Source: Limimaricola soesokkakensis
GTDB lineage: Bacteria; Pseudomonadota; Alphaproteobacteria; Rhodobacterales; Rhodobacteraceae
Direction: 5' to 3'
Length of the DNA stretch: 64,000 nt
Assembly: GCF_900172345.1 (NCBI RefSeq)
Contig: NZ_FWFY01000003.1
Coordinates: 124,001-188,000 of the forward strand
How positions within the stretch are numbered: the first letter of the stretch is position 1; each line of letters starts with the position of its first letter. Below, in pieces: positions 3,371 to 26,663 of this stretch. Made by a program: the position numbers and the translations under genes. The notes under the pieces are model-generated. The model saw nothing but the letters and a program-made list of their open reading frames with translations, was not told the DNA's origin and ran no database searches.

Positions 3371-4750
<1,380 letters not shown>

Positions 4751-4769
4751 CCGCGCGATCTAATGGCTC

Positions 4770-5615
4770 TCAGCCCGTCTGGGAAGCCCTTCCGTTCTCG
4801 GCACGGCGGATCGTGATCGACTTCCAGGCAAAGGCCATCACGAAGATCAGCGTAAGGCCGAGGATGATCGTCGGCGCGGGAGCGCTGTCGATCCAGAAGC
4901 TCGCATAGACCCCACCCCAAGTGGCGAGGAGCGTCACCGCCACTGCGACCATCAGCATCGTGCCGAAGCGGCGTGTGACAAGGAACGCGATGGCGCCCGG
5001 CGCGATCAGGAGGCCGATGGCGAGGATGATGCCGACCGCCGAAAGCGTGCTCACGATGGTCAGCGACAGGAGCGCCAGCAGCCCATAGTGAAAAAGCCCC
5101 ACCGGCATTCCCAGCGCACGCGCATGAGCTGCGTCGAATGCATGCAGCATCAGGTCGCGCCAGCGCGCCAGAAGCGCGAGGCTCACCAGCCCGCCGACGA
5201 TTCCCGCGGTCCAAAGATCCTGCGCGTCGATGCCGAGCATGTTGCCGAACAGGATGTGGTCGAGATGCACTTCGCTCTCGATCCAAGTGTAGAGCACGAG
5301 GCCTACGCCGAACATGCCGGAGAACACGACACCCATCACTGTGTCCTGCTTGATCCGGCTGTGATCGGTGAGAAAGCCTGTCAGCAGCGCGCAGGACATG
5401 CCCGCGACGAAGGCCCCGATCAGCAGGGGGATGTTCAGGATGTAGGCCAGCACCACGCCGGGCAGCACCGCGTGGCTCACTGCGTCGCCCATCAGCGACC
5501 AGCCCTTGAGCACCAAAAAGCACGACAGCAGCGCGCAGGGCACGGCGATCAGCCCGCCGATCACAAAGGCATCGCGCATGAAGTCGAGCTGGAACGGAAG
5601 CAGCCAGTCGCTCAT
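4770..5615 (-). CDS. sitD: Manganese/iron ABC transporter permease (SitD/MntD type)
   Basis: 281-residue polytopic membrane protein of the ABC-3 permease family (ZnuB/SitD/MntD), with about eight hydrophobic segments. The conserved family stretch KGWSLMGDAVSHAVLPGVV is near residues 38-56. The ATG at 5615 overlaps the stop of the upstream permease gene (ATGA), placing it last in the four-gene operon. With the paralogous permease it forms the heterodimeric channel through which metal passes to the cytoplasm. The C-terminus ends in a short charged tail. Confidence 0.93.
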   Translation of the reverse strand: MSDWLLPFQLDFMRDAFVIGGLIAVPCALLSCFLVLKGWSLMGDAVSHAVLPGVVLAYILNIPLLIGAFVAGMSCALLTGFLTDHSRIKQDTVMGVVFSGMFGVGLVLYTWIESEVHLDHILFGNMLGIDAQDLWTAGIVGGLVSLALLARWRDLMLHAFDAAHARALGMPVGLFHYGLLALLSLTIVSTLSAVGIILAIGLLIAPGAIAFLVTRRFGTMLMVAVAVTLLATWGGVYASFWIDSAPAPTIILGLTLIFVMAFAWKSITIRRAENGRASQTG

Positions 5616-6460
5616 AGCGCCGCCCTCGCGCGGGCCCGTGCCGCGAGCCAGCCATGCTTGGGCGCGAAGACGAAGACGAGCAGGAAGATGAGCGTCTGCA
5701 ACGTGATGATCACGCCGCCCGTGGCCCCGTCGAGGAAGAAGGAGGCATAGGCGCCGGTGAAGCTGGTGAGGCTCCCCAGCATCACGGCAATGACGATCAG
5801 CCGCGGGAAGCGGTCGGTGAGCAGGTAGGCCGTGGCGCCGGGCGTCACCACCATGGCGATGACGAGAAATGCGCCCACGGTCTGCAGTGCCGCCACGCAG
5901 GCCGCCGAAAGCAGCACGAAGAACACGAAGCGCAGCATGCCGGGGCGCAGGCCCACGGAGCGCGCATGCGTCTCGTCGAAGAAGGCGACCATCAGGTCCT
6001 TCCATTTCAGGAGCAGCACCACGAGGCAGACCGCGCCGATGATGGCGAGCTGGAGCGTGTCCTCCGGCGTGATGGCGAGGATGTTGCCAAGGATGATGGT
6101 CTGCACGTCCACCGGCGTCGGCGAGACCGAGACCATGAACAGCCCCAGCCCGAAGAAGCCGGTGAAGATCAGGCCGATCACCGTGTCTTCCTTGAGGCCG
6201 GTGCGCTGGTTGAGGAACAGCATCGCCGCCGCCGCCAGCCCGCCCGAGAGGAACGCGCCTAGCGCGAAGGGCAGGCCCAGCATGTAGGCCCCCGCGACGC
6301 CCGGCACGATGGAGTGCGAGAGCGCGTCGCCAATCAGCGACCAGCCCTTGAGCATCAGATAGGCCGAGAGAAAGGCGCAGACCGCGCCGACGAGGGCCGA
6401 CACCCACATCGCGTTGAGCATATAGCCATAGGTGAAGGGCAGGGTGAGCGTTTCGATCAT
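5612..6460 (-). CDS. sitC: Manganese/iron ABC transporter permease (SitC/MntC type)
   Basis: 282-residue ABC-3 family permease, paralogous to the downstream gene product; [19 protein letters not shown] is the shared family motif. About eight hydrophobic segments are evident, with a basic C-terminal tail (ARARARA). Start and stop overlap both neighbours by four bases, so the two permeases are made together. Presence of two permease genes rather than one is the rule for SitABCD systems and differs from the single ZnuB of zinc importers. Confidence 0.93.
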
Positions 6461-21809: not shown

Positions 21810-22015
21810 GCCCGTATTCCCCGTCTGACCGGCCCGGGTTGTCCCGGATCGCGGTGCTGCTCTGCCGGGCGCCAAGATGCCGCACTCCGCAGCCTTGCGC
21901 AATTCGACCGCGCCGCGCCGCCGCCGCGGCTCTCTCACGATGGCGTGAGCGCATGCGCGCGCAGCCGCCGCGCCGCCCCATTGACCGAAAGCTCGAACCC
22001 CTTCATATGCGGGCC

Positions 22016-23815
22016 ATGACCGAGCTTTCGCACATCCGCAACTTCTCCATCGTGGCCCATATCGACCACGGTAAATCGACGCTTGCCGACCGGCTGATCC
22101 AGTCGACCGGGACGGTGCAGGACCGCGAGATGAAGGCCCAGCTGCTCGACAGCATGGACATCGAGCGCGAGCGCGGCATCACCATCAAGGCGCAGACCGT
22201 CCGCATCGACTACAAGGCGCTGAACGGCGAGACCTATGTGCTCAACCTGATCGACACGCCCGGCCATGTCGACTTTGCCTACGAGGTCTCCCGCTCCATG
22301 CGCGCGGTCGAGGGCTCGCTGCTGGTCGTCGATTCGACCCAAGGGGTCGAGGCGCAGACGCTGGCCAACGTCTACCACGCGCTCGACGCGGATCACGAGA
22401 TCGTCCCGGTCCTCAACAAGATCGACCTGCCGGCCTCCGAGCCGGACCGGATCAAGGAGCAGATCGAGGACGTGATCGGCATCGACGCCTCCGAGGCGAT
22501 GCTGGTCTCGGCCAAGACCGGCGAGGGCATCCGCGAGACGCTCGAGGCCATCGTGCACCGCCTGCCCGCGCCTAAGGGCGACCGCGACGCGCCGCTGAAG
22601 GCGATGCTGGTCGATTCGTGGTACGACCTCTATCTCGGCGTCGTGGTTCTCGTGCGGATCATGGACGGCGTGCTGAAGAAGAACGACCGCATCAAGTTCA
22701 TGCAGAACGGCACGATCCATCAGGTCGACCGGATCGGCGTGTTCAAGCCCGGCATGCTCCCCGTGGATGAGCTGGGGCCGGGCGAGATCGGCTTTCTCAC
22801 CGCTTCGATCAAGCAGGTGCGCGACACCAAGGTCGGCGACACCATCACCCACGAGAAGAAGGGCGCGGACAAGCCGCTGCCGGGCTTCGCCCCATCGGTG
22901 CCGGTGGTGTTCTGCGGGCTGTTCCCCGTGGATTCGGCCGAGTTCGAGGATCTGCGCAACGCGATCGAGAAGCTGGCGCTGAACGACGCCTCCTTCTCCT
23001 ACGAGATGGAGACCTCGGCCGCGCTCGGCTTCGGCTTCCGCTGCGGCTTCCTTGGTCTGCTGCATCTCGAGGTGATCCGCGACCGGATCGACCGCGAATA
23101 CGATATCGACCTGATCACGACTGCTCCTTCCGTGGTCTACCACGTCCACATGCGCGACGGCACGATGCACGAGCTGCACAACCCTGCCGACATGCCCGAC
23201 CTCACCCATGTCGACCATATCGAAGAGCCGCGGATCAAGGCGACGATCATGGTCCCCGACGACTATCTGGGCGACGTGCTCAAGCTGTGCCAGGACCGGC
23301 GCGGCATCCAGATCGAGCTGACCTATGCCGGCTCGCGCCCGCTGGTGGTCTACGACCTGCCGCTCAACGAGGTGGTGTTCGACTTCTACGACCGGCTGAA
23401 ATCGGTGACCAAGGGCTATGCGTCCTTCGATTATCAGATCACCGGCTACCGGCAGGACAACCTCGTCAAGATGTCGATCCTCGTCAATGACGAGCCGGTC
23501 GACGCGCTGTCGATGATGGTGCATCGCGACCGAGCCGAGATGCGCGGCCGGGCGATGGTGGAAAAGCTCAAGGAGCTGATCCCCCGCCACATGTTCAAGA
23601 TCCCGATCCAGGCCGCGATCGGCGGCAAGGTGATCGCCCGCGAGACGCTGTCGGCGATGCGCAAGGACGTGACCGCCAAGTGCTATGGCGGCGACGCGAC
23701 GCGTAAGCGCAAGCTTCTAGACAAGCAGAAGGCGGGTAAGAAGAAGATGCGCCAGTTCGGCAAGGTGGACATTCCGCAGGAGGCGTTCATCTCTGCGTTG
23801 AAGATGGATAGCTAA
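22016..23815 (+). CDS. lepA: Elongation factor 4 (LepA)
   Basis: 599 residues, the family length. This ribosome-associated translational GTPase is linked to initiation and back-translocation. G1 is AHIDHGKST (14-22), G3 is DTPGHVDF and G4 is NKIDLP. The LepA-specific C-terminal domain ends in [25 protein letters not shown] and KKRMRQFG-like basic residues. An ATG three codons upstream is also possible. It is followed at once by the AT-rich ATPase gene with no terminator between them. Confidence 0.97.
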
Positions 23816-23829
23816 TAGGACTGGATTGT

Positions 23830-25599
23830 TTGGCCCCTGTATTTATTCGATCGATCGAGTTCAAGGATTATAAGAGTTTCGCCCACTTCAAACTTTCGGC
23901 CAGAGAGCGGAATGTACTGGTAGGGCCAAACAACGCTGGAAAATCTACTGTACTTGATGCCTTTAGAATAGCGTTTGATGTAATCCGTAGTGCGAGCAAG
24001 CGCGCCCCTAAGTTGAAATCTCAGGGGCCTTATGGCGTTTGCTCGACGTACTTTATTCCTCATTCAGCCGTGCAAAGCGAGCTCAGACACTGCGTCCATA
24101 ACTTTGGTTCTGGGTATGCCGAAATAATATTCGATGCATCTAACGGCAGCAAGTTCGTCATCCGAATTTCGCCCGACGATGACATCGAGAGCTTCGTGGC
24201 TTCAAGTTCTGAGCCACAGAAGAATACTAGGTTTCTTGAGCGAGAGTTTGGGGCAAAATTCATTGTGATACCCACGCTTAGCCCTCTTGAACAAAATGAG
24301 GAGCTAGTTCAGCAAGTAACTGTAGAGCGGAACCGCTACAGTCGACTGGCCAGTCGAAACTTCAGAAATTTTTGGCTTCACCAGTCCTCCGAGGACTTCG
24401 AGAAATTTGCAGACCTCGTGGAGATGGGCTGGCCGGGAATTAGGGTACGCAAGCCTGAATTAGAGCCTTACGCACCGGGGAAATCATTCGTAAGGATGTT
24501 TTTTCGGGATGGGCCGCATGTCCGGGAAATTCAATGGGCGGGCTTCGGCTTTCAGGTTTGGATGCAATCAGTGATGCACTTATTGCATGCCGACAAGAAC
24601 TCGATTGTTGTTCTGGATGAGCCGGATGTGTATTTGCACCCTGATTTGCAACATAAGCTTCTCAGGTATGTAACTAAAAAGTCCGGGCAATATTTTATTG
24701 CTACACATTCAACTGAGATAATTAATGATGTTGAACCTGGGGATGTTCTGATTGTTCGGCCAACGGGTCGATCAGCTAAAAGGATCAAGGGCGATGACGG
24801 CTATGCCGAGGTTTATAATGCCATCGGCAGTTCGGAAAATGCTCAGTTTGCTAGGTTGGCCCGAACCAGAAAAGTGCTGTATTTAGAAGGGAAGGATGCG
24901 CGCATTCTGTCCAAAGTCGCAGGAAAATTTCTCAAATCTGACTTTCTAAATGATGCATCGATAACAGTCATGAAAACAGACGGGTTTTCGAATTGGTTAA
25001 GGGTATCGACCACATCTTGGGTGTTCAATAAGTTTTTTGATTTTGAGGTGAAGGTTGCTGCGATATTTGATAGAGATTATAGGTCGGACCTCGAAGTGGC
25101 AGACTTTACCGCGAAAATGCGGGATGCCGAAGTTAAGTGTTTTGTTTTGCCTTTCAAGGAGCTCGAGAACATTCTACTGGTGCCTGTGGCAATTGGGAGA
25201 GTCGTGAGGAAGTATGCGAGAGATAATCTGCCAGCGGATCTAGAATCTATCATTCAGGTAAGGCTAGATAATGCTATTGAGGCATGTAAGGTATCAACCT
25301 CAGCAAGACGATCGGGTTCTAGAATTAGTTTTGAGCTTGAGAGAAATCCGAAGGTAGACGTTACTGGTCTAAGTACTGAAGAGAGTCAGTCCTTCGAAAG
25401 CTCTTGGCGAGATGAGCATGGCAGAATATCCGTGGTTCCAGGGAAGGCGGTATTTACTGAAATGGCGGATTACGTGCAGAAGAACTTTAAGGTATCTTTG
25501 ACTCCTTCGCGCGTTGTAGATGAAATATCTGAAAGCGAACTTCCAAAAGATTTTCTGAAAACTTTAGATCAGCTTCAAGTCTTTTTTTCTGATAAGTAG
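23830..25599 (+). CDS. OLD/PARIS-like ATPase with TOPRIM-type C-terminus (probable defence gene, acquired)
   Basis: 589 residues from a TTG 9 bases after an AGGA. An AAA/ABC-type ATPase occupies about 1-310: Walker A GPNNAGKST at 32-40, Walker B SIVVLDEPD at 258-266 and the H-loop ATHST at 291-295. From about 345 it looks like a TOPRIM-type nuclease domain: LEGKD (E353), FDRDY (D414, D416) and KELEN (443-447), reminiscent of OLD nucleases and of the DUF4435 part of PARIS. Base composition differs sharply from its neighbours: 24661-24720 has 21 G+C of 60, against 39 of 60 at 22381-22440 in lepA. It lies between lepA and a convergent gene with only 14- and 13-base gaps. No partner helicase is present. 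Function in phage defence is inferred. Confidence 0.8.
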   Translation: MAPVFIRSIEFKDYKSFAHFKLSARERNVLVGPNNAGKSTVLDAFRIAFDVIRSASKRAPKLKSQGPYGVCSTYFIPHSAVQSELRHCVHNFGSGYAEIIFDASNGSKFVIRISPDDDIESFVASSSEPQKNTRFLEREFGAKFIVIPTLSPLEQNEELVQQVTVERNRYSRLASRNFRNFWLHQSSEDFEKFADLVEMGWPGIRVRKPELEPYAPGKSFVRMFFRDGPHVREIQWAGFGFQVWMQSVMHLLHADKNSIVVLDEPDVYLHPDLQHKLLRYVTKKSGQYFIATHSTEIINDVEPGDVLIVRPTGRSAKRIKGDDGYAEVYNAIGSSENAQFARLARTRKVLYLEGKDARILSKVAGKFLKSDFLNDASITVMKTDGFSNWLRVSTTSWVFNKFFDFEVKVAAIFDRDYRSDLEVADFTAKMRDAEVKCFVLPFKELENILLVPVAIGRVVRKYARDNLPADLESIIQVRLDNAIEACKVSTSARRSGSRISFELERNPKVDVTGLSTEESQSFESSWRDEHGRISVVPGKAVFTEMADYVQKNFKVSLTPSRVVDEISESELPKDFLKTLDQLQVFFSDK

Positions 25600-25612
25600 T
25601 CAAATAGATTGT

Positions 25613-25825
25613 TCATCTCCCCCGCCCACTCTTTTCCTGCAACGCATCGATCCGCTCGCTGGCCTCGGCCTTGGTCTGCCCGTCGTCGAACTCCTCACCG
25701 GCCTCCTCGGACAGCGTCTTGAGATAGCTCGCCTGCGCGCCGGTCATCGGTTCGTCGCCGGTGACCCAATCCTCGGGGCTCTTCTTGGCGTTGCCCTGCG
25801 GGTGGCTATTGGGGTTGTCGGTCAT
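25613..25825 (-). CDS. DUF3072 domain protein (copy 1)
   Basis: 70 residues. The core EDWVTGDEPMTGAQASYLKTLSEEAGEEF...TKAEASERIDALQ matches DUF3072, a small acidic domain of unknown role. AGGAGA 7 bases before the ATG at 25825 decides the start. A second, more divergent DUF3072 protein is encoded at 33817-34017. Both genes are preceded by a GGAAC element spaced like a sigma-EcfG promoter, which suggests a general-stress role. Its 3' end borders the acquired ATPase gene. Confidence 0.85.
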   Translation of the reverse strand: MTDNPNSHPQGNAKKSPEDWVTGDEPMTGAQASYLKTLSEEAGEEFDDGQTKAEASERIDALQEKSGRGR

Positions 25826-25854
25826 GTCATGATCTCCTGTGTTGGAGTTCATGT

Positions 25855-25879
25855 AATGTTCCGGCTGCGAAAGCGTTCC
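25855..25879 (-). promoter_or_regulatory. Possible sigma-EcfG promoter of DUF3072 copy 1
   Basis: On the minus strand GGAAC (25879-25875) is followed after 16 bases by CATT (25858-25855). The consensus of alphaproteobacterial EcfG promoters is GGAAC-N16/17-CGTT, so the -10 has one mismatch. It lies about 30 bases before the start codon. Confidence 0.4.
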
Positions 25880-25913
25880 CCGCGCCGATGATCACACCGG
25901 CGCGAGGCGGGTC

Positions 25914-26663
25914 TCAGCCTTCGAGAAAGCCCCTGACCGCCGCCTCGACCTCGCGCGGCTTTTCCGCGTGCAGCCAGTGCCCGGCACCCTCGATCACCTC
26001 GAAGTTCGGCTCGGCAAAGAGCGCCCGGATCGCGTCATGGTGGTCCTCGGTCACGTAGGACGAGTTCGCCCCCGACAGGAACAGGGCAGGGCCGTCAAAG
26101 CGGCCCTCGACCTCCGGAAAGCCGAGGATCGTTTCCATATCGCGTTCCAACACGTCGAGGTTCAGCTTCCAGCGTTTCTCCTGAAGATCCAGCGACTGCA
26201 GGAAGAACGCCGCCGTCGCGGCCTCCAGATCGCCCATCATCTCGGTCGCCTCGGCACGGCTGGCGATGGCCTCCAGATCGACCTGCTTCATCTTGCGGAT
26301 GTTGTCGATCTGGTCGTGGCCATAGGTCACCGGCGCGATGTCGGCGACCACGAGGCGGCGCACGAGGTCGGGGCGGGTAAGGGCGAGCACCATCGACGCC
26401 TTGCCGCCCATGGAGTGGCCCAGCACGTCCGAGACCCCGTGATGCTCCAGCACCTCGGCCAGATCCTCGGCCATGCCGAAGTAGTCGTGGCGCTCGGTCC
26501 AGTGGCTGTCGCCGTGGTTGCGCATGTCCACGGCGATGACCTGCCGGTCCTCGCCCAGGCGGCGTGCGATGACGCCCCAGTTGCGGGCCGAGCCGAACAG
26601 GCCGTGGACGATCAAAAGGGGCGGGCGGTCGGAGGGCTCTCCGGTGAGGATGGTGTTCAGCAT
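25914..26663 (-). CDS. Alpha/beta hydrolase (YbfF-like esterase)
   Basis: 249 residues. The oxyanion segment IVHGLFGSARNW, MRNHGDS, the nucleophile elbow GHSMGGKA, an acid in the LFLSGANSSYV region and the catalytic His in EGAGHWLHAEKP give a complete alpha/beta-hydrolase triad. The overall pattern is that of YbfF acyl-thioesterase/esterases (and eukaryotic ABHD11). The natural substrate is not known. The ATG at 26663 starts exactly at the family N-terminus. Divergent from the small membrane protein gene. Confidence 0.9.
   Translation of the reverse strand: MLNTILTGEPSDRPPLLIVHGLFGSARNWGVIARRLGEDRQVIAVDMRNHGDSHWTERHDYFGMAEDLAEVLEHHGVSDVLGHSMGGKASMVLALTRPDLVRRLVVADIAPVTYGHDQIDNIRKMKQVDLEAIASRAEATEMMGDLEAATAAFFLQSLDLQEKRWKLNLDVLERDMETILGFPEVEGRFDGPALFLSGANSSYVTEDHHDAIRALFAEPNFEVIEGAGHWLHAEKPREVEAAVRGFLEG

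Follow-up and report, generated by a model that had tools for sequence, protein, structure and literature searches.

A candidate one-gene immune module, probably AriB-like, behind lepA in Limimaricola soesokkakensis

The ariAB genes of the phage-defence system PARIS were found in 5.2% of genomes, either as a two-gene cassette or as a single-gene fusion, and their printed detection uses DUF4435 at 27 bits (available text of PMC9122126, 2022). AriB is described as a two-metal-ion tRNase that is inactive as the E26A mutant and is released from AriA upon triggering (available portion of PMC12409363). In the accessible part of a review on OLD nucleases, the place of single-gene AriAB is left unsettled, either as a separate class or as a protein that differs from Class 1 OLD in its working (PMC10568477). 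Here, a stretch of 64,000 nucleotides (nt) from Limimaricola soesokkakensis (contig NZ_FWFY01000003.1, positions 124,001 to 188,000; hereafter the window) was analyzed for an AT-rich open reading frame (ORF) at 23830–25599, located behind lepA. We consider it fairly likely that this ORF is a horizontally acquired one-gene immune module, in which an ABC ATPase sensor is fused to a TOPRIM nuclease of the AriB/DUF4435 type.

The G+C content of the ORF is 45.6%, compared with 67.3% for the whole window, and the G+C content at third codon positions (GC3) is 46.3%, compared with 91.4% in lepA. None of 1,899 segments of 1,770 nt outside 23000–26500 was as AT-rich as the ORF (minimum 62.7% G+C), and 500-nt segments taken at steps of 100 nt fell below 54% G+C only between 23601 and 25900. 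An earlier reading of this DNA from its letters alone (the sequence-only reading) had given the same ORF coordinates, and its local G+C counts (21 of 60 at 24661–24720 and 39 of 60 at 22381–22440) and its gaps (14 nt between the lepA stop and the ORF start, 13 nt between the ORF end and the DUF3072 gene) were exact. In addition, the gene was found in 1 of 61 genomes (its own and 60 relatives; E ≤1e-15) and in 1 of 289 genomes of the class (E ≤1e-30; this sample overlaps the 61), in both cases its own genome only, and is thus not the conserved core gene that the sequence-only reading had named as the opposite case. The ORF was almost certainly acquired horizontally, and the acquisition is recent. 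Its neighbours are lepA, the DUF3072 gene and a hydrolase gene, with no UvrD-like partner at the window locus, supporting the proposed insertion of a single gene without companions. Promoter-like and terminator-like sites in 23500–26000 were not above chance, and none lay in the 14-nt gap between lepA and the ORF. Therefore, transcription of the ORF by read-through from lepA is plausible.

The N-terminal part of the 589-residue protein (approximately residues 1–336) belongs to the SMC/Rad50/PtuA/AriA group of ABC ATPases. The Pfam families AAA_21 (81 bits, cut-off 27) and AAA_15 (64.9 bits, cut-off 32.1) were both matched above their curated cut-offs, and structural matches of this half reached Z 21.7; an NCBIfam search of the protein returned no family near its cut-off. 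The best PADLOC profile was fused AriAB (91.4 bits, the library cut-off for this profile not being shown), followed by AriA (78.1 bits), with GajA also among the matches (64.9 bits). The AriAB profile has 694 positions, and the best matched stretch is 327–596. Conservation was counted in a 26-member family alignment, and all 26 proteins matched AriAB at E ≤1e-8. The motifs listed in the sequence-only reading (GPNNAGKST, VVLDEPD, ATHST, E353, D414, D416 and KELEN) lie where it had placed them (Table 1), and WxGxGFQxWxQ and DEPDxYLHxDLQ are also invariant in the alignment. Its assignment of an ABC ATPase followed by a predicted TOPRIM-type domain was supported.

Because full-length fold searches mainly tested the ATPase half (residues 1–336), the isolated C-terminus (residues 335–589) was folded separately with AlphaFold2, giving a model with a predicted local distance difference test (pLDDT) score of 93.1. 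The top structural matches of this model were the AriB chains 8ux9_A and 8v46_D (Z 11.7 and 10.9; 218 residues; root-mean-square deviation [rmsd] 7.3–7.4), compared with Z 8.5–8.7 over 171–177 residues (rmsd 5.0–5.3) for OLD TOPRIM domains. Further matches were a hypothetical Pyrococcus protein (Z 8.2), retron Eco8 (7.6) and GajA (6.4), and a BFVD fold search with the C-terminus gave a best E of only 0.069. The model matches TOPRIM proteins, so the TOPRIM fold called from the letters held up. Among the 26 family members, Pfam at E ≤0.1 detected DUF4435 in 6 (best 5.1e-5) and OLD-like_TOPRIM in 2 (best 0.075). In profile–profile comparison, the family C-terminus scored 95.8% (E 3e-9) against four ATPase–DUF4435 fusions and 4.8% (E 0.0025) against nine OLD C-termini; 12 OLD loci had been collected, of which L149 and L152 were dropped because no cutting point was found and L153 had no usable ORF. 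Moreover, the EN motif lies 28 residues after DxD in the family and 21–29 residues after it in three of four fusions and four of four AriB sequences, whereas only one of the nine OLD C-termini has it, at 45 residues. In the alignment, all 26 proteins have E-x-E-N; a pattern script found the motif in 23 of them, in L011 and L020 by a chance first match. Since the structure, Pfam, profile–profile and motif comparisons agree, the AriB/DUF4435 type is favoured over the OLD type, and the C-terminal TOPRIM half looks closer to the former, as judged from sequence and model. The "OLD/PARIS-like" label of the sequence-only reading is thereby narrowed, the TOPRIM half appearing nearer to AriB/DUF4435 and hardly matching OLD by the C-terminal profile; the DUF4435 model itself misses the window protein.

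Homologues occur in many phyla; they are mostly AT-rich and have no shared partner. A scan with two short peptide patterns, covering one genome per species in 84,980 species, gave at least 34 homologue loci. In a plasmid collection, nine records matched, two of them Cupriavidus megaplasmids, in the second of which (EM10) the open frame appears in pieces. The window protein had no match in 50,697 phage records. One viral contig (L042) carries a homologue adjoined by a PrtN activator gene, with an S24/HTH repressor gene about 3.4 kb off; because of these genes, this contig is probably a prophage. Homologue L008 lies beside a tyrosine integrase, and L009 has a large serine recombinase at a distance of about 1 kb. 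Neighbourhoods were compared for 36 homologues, namely those of the 34 scan loci, of Cupriavidus L003 and of the viral contig, several of which had short flanks. Among ORFs of at least 80 residues, no family of neighbours occurred in more than 3 of the 36 loci, and lepA was in none of the stretches around them. Flanks of more than 2 kb were available for 34 loci, and in 28 of these the G+C content of the homologue was at least 5 points under that of the flanks. The sites mostly differ, although L022 and L026, both from Polaromonas, have neighbours in common. L022 carries a NERD–UvrD helicase gene (4141–5958) 42 nt upstream of the homologue, a Gabija-like pairing that is not found directly upstream in the related L026, and at L020 a SNF2/NOV_C helicase gene lies 23 nt upstream. 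On a Nostoc plasmid, a distant relative (L007, 4476–6353) is flanked by pglX and pglZ within a BREX operon. A larger common mobile unit around the homologues was considered and rejected: hardly any DNA was common to the 800-nt flanks of the window gene and of eight homologue loci (several of them cut by contig ends), the matches being one of 105 nt (L009/L032) and two short ones.

What lies behind lepA in relatives was surveyed over up to 6 kb in 60 genomes, including seven congeners (less in four of them, with a minimum of 432 nt). ORFs were mechanical longest open frames, with approximate cargo starts, and housekeeping neighbours were mostly named by eye. Six of the seven congeners carry an AT-rich gene of 253–511 residues at the lepA junction, in either orientation, and none of these six genes is related to another at E 1e-5; in the seventh (G004), about 77 nt that include a terminator-like hairpin take this place. 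In three of the seven, homology to the window returns only at 25901–25936, the 3' end of the alpha/beta hydrolase gene. The convergent gene is indeed a DUF3072 gene, as the sequence-only reading had it, but it is not the fixed housekeeping neighbour then supposed: it is variable too, being missing from this junction in three of the seven congeners. A locus was counted as occupied when an ORF of at least 100 residues, at least 8 points under the G+C content of lepA, started no more than 2 kb from the stop. By this measure 32 of 60 loci were occupied, the first such ORFs lying 1–620 nt behind the stop, and 27 of the 32 held exactly one AT-rich ORF. As a positional control, 300-nt segments were called AT-rich when at least 10 points under lepA. 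The first three behind lepA were AT-rich in 25/60, 32/59 and 29/59 loci (42–54% within 900 nt), the fourth and fifth in 18/59 and 8/57, and the frequency was 2/58 at 1,500 nt and 0–1 of 56–58 beyond. Within these loci, AT-rich inserts are thus not equally common everywhere, their frequency being at most 3% from 1.5 kb on.

By BLAST, only two pairs of cargo genes were related (L096/L126, 37%; L102/L115, 33%). By Pfam, L086 (4847–5767) and L128 (1040–1990), from different genera, both encode DUF7946–DUF7947 at the lepA site. When 30 cargo proteins, one per locus, were scanned, nine passed a Pfam cut-off (TIR_2, HARE-HTH, DUF7946 twice, DUF2971, DUF3800, FRG, DUF5615 and 8xMP), nine had only sub-threshold matches, among them HEPN, SIR2, reverse transcriptase (RT), AAA and HTH, and 12 had no match at E ≤0.01. 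PADLOC was run on 10 cargo proteins, most of them chosen for suggestive domains and set beside no background rate; ThsB (199 bits), RT_UG13a (544) and PDC-S15 (261) were found, one match was weak and six proteins had none, so that three of the ten match known or candidate defence families by sequence. The UG13a-type defence reverse transcriptase is at L133 (4147–5968). The ThsB-like TIR protein of L074 (1084–2040) is encoded by the sole AT-rich gene of at least 100 residues behind lepA, and no ThsA-like ORF was noticed beside it. At L109 (1024–1407), a DUF5615/PIN-like gene beside a MerR-like gene (by eye) resembles a toxin–antitoxin pair. The junction comparison proposed in the sequence-only reading therefore shows other genes, some of defence type, at this position in relatives. 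In a second sample, consisting of 16 family genomes that were mostly more distant (one also in the survey), six had an insert at lepA and two a late one. A class-wide hotspot found no support, as none of six genomes outside the family (G040, G043, G048, G050, G051 and G052; a small sample) has a lepA insert. The features of a hotspot, the same core flank with accessory content differing between relatives, were observed, and the lepA 3' end is a hotspot of AT-rich genes across the family of the window, the genes being rarely related to each other.

Several observations weigh against an AriB-like protein that works as a single gene. The rmsd of the C-terminal model to AriB is high (7.3), and the structure tool warns that, for helix-rich models, a shared arrangement alone may account for Z values below about 13; Foldseek also ranks AriB first for the C-terminus, yet weakly (best E 1.6e-3). 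The window protein does not match DUF4435 (PF14491, cut-off 27 bits) at E ≤1, and the family C-terminus could not be aligned by profile with four stand-alone AriB sequences. The ATPase–DUF4435 fusions likewise failed to align with the same four sequences, so this alignment is probably too thin to inform. The second DxD aspartate is lost in one aligned protein (L030). Moreover, at least two homologue loci have a helicase gene directly upstream, and a partner gene is possible in some family members, only selected neighbours having been identified by profile. Finally, the full-length family profile scored OLD at 99.9% (E 8e-35) versus 99.6% (E 1.5e-22) for the fusions, a closeness to OLD that is probably dominated by the ATPase part. 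This full-length score, the make-up of a single gene with ABC and TOPRIM parts, the match of all 26 aligned proteins to the PADLOC Old profile, and the place of the OLD TOPRIM structures next after AriB, at lower rmsd, would all suit a Class 1 OLD nuclease, a lone ABC ATPase–TOPRIM protein that cuts or degrades DNA, not RNA. This alternative is distinctly the less probable, as OLD-like_TOPRIM (PF20469) is unmatched by the window protein at E ≤1 and weak in its two family matches, the C-terminal profile gives 4.8% for OLD versus 95.8% for the fusions, and the EN motif has the AriB-like spacing, which is not the case in the nine OLD C-termini.

It is improbable that the gene has no anti-phage role and encodes a DNA-repair or genome-maintenance ATPase–nuclease, or a toxin-like selfish gene, that is mobile by chance. 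The ATPase fold is common to Rad50 and SMC, and many homologue neighbours look housekeeping by eye; against this stand the patchy distribution of the gene, its low G+C content relative to the flanks in most homologue loci, the PrtN and integrase genes that adjoin homologues, and the ThsB, UG13 RT and FRG candidate genes at the lepA site elsewhere. The nearest PADLOC profiles are defence ATPases as well, in a library that holds defence models only. It is very unlikely that the gene is what remains, decayed or orphaned, of a two-gene system whose partner was lost, either a Gabija-like GajA or a retron effector: the GajA profile match and the helicase gene 42 nt upstream of the L022 homologue are compatible with this, whereas no neighbour family recurs in more than three loci, no such helicase directly precedes the homologue in the close relative L026, and the candidate active-site residues are retained.

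The preferred reading is thus that of a divergent single-chain ATPase–TOPRIM protein, probably AriB-like and probably defensive, with an inferred anti-phage role. As the published detection feature, DUF4435 at 27 bits, was not reached, the protein was filed as PARIS-like and not as PARIS; its build is that of a fused PARIS protein, and most likely it works like one. The N-terminal ABC ATPase, of the SMC/Rad50/AriA type, would serve as an oligomerising sensor, and the fused C-terminal TOPRIM domain as a metal-dependent nuclease that would stay inactive until the ATPase recognises a phage product. PARIS itself senses the Ocr protein of phage T7. Once activated, the nuclease may cut an essential nucleic acid, most likely RNA, for example tRNA as AriB does, and the cleavage would halt growth of the infected cell. 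Because a fused effector cannot be released as in PARIS, activation would have to be internal to the oligomer, through rearrangement or dimerisation. The gene would sit in an exchange site right behind lepA, where lone AT-rich genes, some of defence type, may take each other's place, perhaps through homologous recombination within the core genes on either side.

As to the mode of exchange, lepA has GAT as its third-last codon, counting the stop, in 22 of 26 genomes with adjacent AT-rich DNA versus 11 of 34 elsewhere (Fisher p 6.8e-5, shared ancestry not corrected for), and weaker differences in the lepA tail extend back about 15 codons. In the second sample, GAT was present in 6/6 genomes with an insert but also in 7/10 without one or with a late one; since this hardly bears the association out, no claim was rested on it. 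Within the genus, the DNA between the lepA stop and the following gene is swapped as one piece in most cases, and the hairpin of G004 recurs only in G005. A classic integrase attachment site, at which the lepA tail would be repeated on the right, was rejected because no such repeat was found: in 24 occupied loci, the window among them, the last 18 nt of lepA had no copy with fewer than 5 mismatches at 50–4,000 nt past the stop. Two observations speak against this rejection. G005 (L078) has a degenerate copy, about 147 nt long, of the lepA 3' end at about 80–220 nt behind the stop, and G004 (L077), otherwise empty, has an 18-nt match to the region where the G005 copy starts. Transposase-like ORFs (REP-type and IS66/IS5-like) were noticed by eye, with no systematic search for mobility genes, near the occupied L120 (865–1410 nt behind the lepA stop) and L084 (1283–3213 nt).

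Double recombination in flanking core genes was proposed for hotspots without mobile elements (available text of PMC5635113) and would be the simplest account of the lepA site. Gene transfer agents are particularly well conserved in Rhodobacterales (available text of PMC9836097) and would suit as a carrier of the genes at this site. The closest named homologues of the window come from Salipiger, Pelagimonas and Ruegeria, which points to this order. We also consider, as a doubtful idea, that in this family the lepA 3' end serves specifically for the exchange of one-gene immune cassettes, with an undescribed kind of single-gene movement that needs no recombinase of its own. Such movement might draw on recombination with short DNA packaged in gene transfer agents, or on an integrase that acts on the lepA end from elsewhere; unrelated lone AT-rich genes would start right behind the lepA stop, and the window gene would count among these interchangeable cassettes, as a PARIS of one gene that can never release its effector.

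The exchange site at lepA is a less expected result than the identity of the gene. No report of lepA as a defence hotspot was found among the papers listed by the literature searches, and the word is absent from the available texts of PMC10250203 and PMC13386836. The site offers a practical gene trap, since 32 of 60 family genomes yielded an AT-rich gene when the sequence past lepA was read, and it may provide new immune genes because 12 of the 30 cargo proteins scanned had no Pfam match. If the protein is of the AriB type, its single chain of ATPase and TOPRIM makes it testable whether the PARIS effector needs release from its sensor.

Table 1. Positions of the ORF, its predicted parts and its neighbours in the window
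Feature	Position	Strand	Remark
Single-gene ABC ATPase–TOPRIM ORF	23830..25599	+	TTG start, 589 aa, 45.6% G+C
Walker A GPNNAGKST, residues 32–40	23923..23949	+	8/9 residues invariant in 26; A36 varies
Walker B VVLDEPD, residues 260–266	24607..24627	+	D263–D266 invariant in 26
H-loop ATHS, residues 291–294	24700..24711	+	Invariant in 26-member alignment
C-terminal TOPRIM-type domain with helical extension, residues 335–589	24832..25596	+	AlphaFold2 model, AriB match
E353, presumed first metal ligand	24886..24888	+	Invariant; role inferred from TOPRIM pattern
D414-R-D416, TOPRIM DxD	25069..25077	+	D414 invariant, D416 at least 90%
KELEN, residues 443–447, probable EN-motif equivalent of AriB/DUF4435	25156..25170	+	E444, E446, N447 invariant
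G538–K539	25441..25446	+	At least 90% conserved
lepA, core gene upstream	22007..23815	+	GTP_EFTU, LepA_C matches; start codon assumed
lepA final three codons GAT AGC TAA, at left junction	23807..23815	+	
DUF3072 gene, convergent, at junction in part of genus only	25613..25852	-	Pfam 105.5 bits
Alpha/beta hydrolase, right neighbour common to congeners	25914..26660	-	Start codon assumed

Compared with known systems, the window protein shares with fused AriAB of PARIS an ABC ATPase and a TOPRIM domain in one chain and agreeing E, DxD and EN positions; AriAB ranks first among its PADLOC profiles, and AriB among the fold matches of its predicted C-terminal model. In contrast to fused AriAB, it has no Pfam DUF4435 match, is shorter, and shows 23% identity over 234 residues to the nearest ATPase–DUF4435 fusion found (L138). 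The sequence-only reading had suggested that the fused form without partners may be a variant not yet described; this was not supported, to the extent that single-gene ariA–ariB fusions were reported in 2022 (available text of PMC9122126). The fusion as such is already known, and the family here is a divergent variant. Class 1 OLD proteins (P2 Old and Thermus OLD) likewise come from a lone gene with ABC followed by TOPRIM and have a similar length, but the C-terminus of the window protein is not OLD-like by profile or EN motif. Gabija GajA (Class 2 OLD) and the retron ATPases (PtuA and Eco8 OLD) share the ATPase domain fold; unlike these systems, the window gene has no helicase, RT or HNH gene among its neighbours, and GajA matches the C-terminal model only at Z 6.4. 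As a site, the lepA 3' end resembles the core-flanked hotspots of Pseudomonas aeruginosa (cDHS1/2) and of P2/P4 in having a conserved flank and variable, low-G+C content that includes defence genes. It differs in scale: the median size of cDHS1 is 26 kb (available text of PMC10250203), whereas the lepA site usually holds one AT-rich gene.

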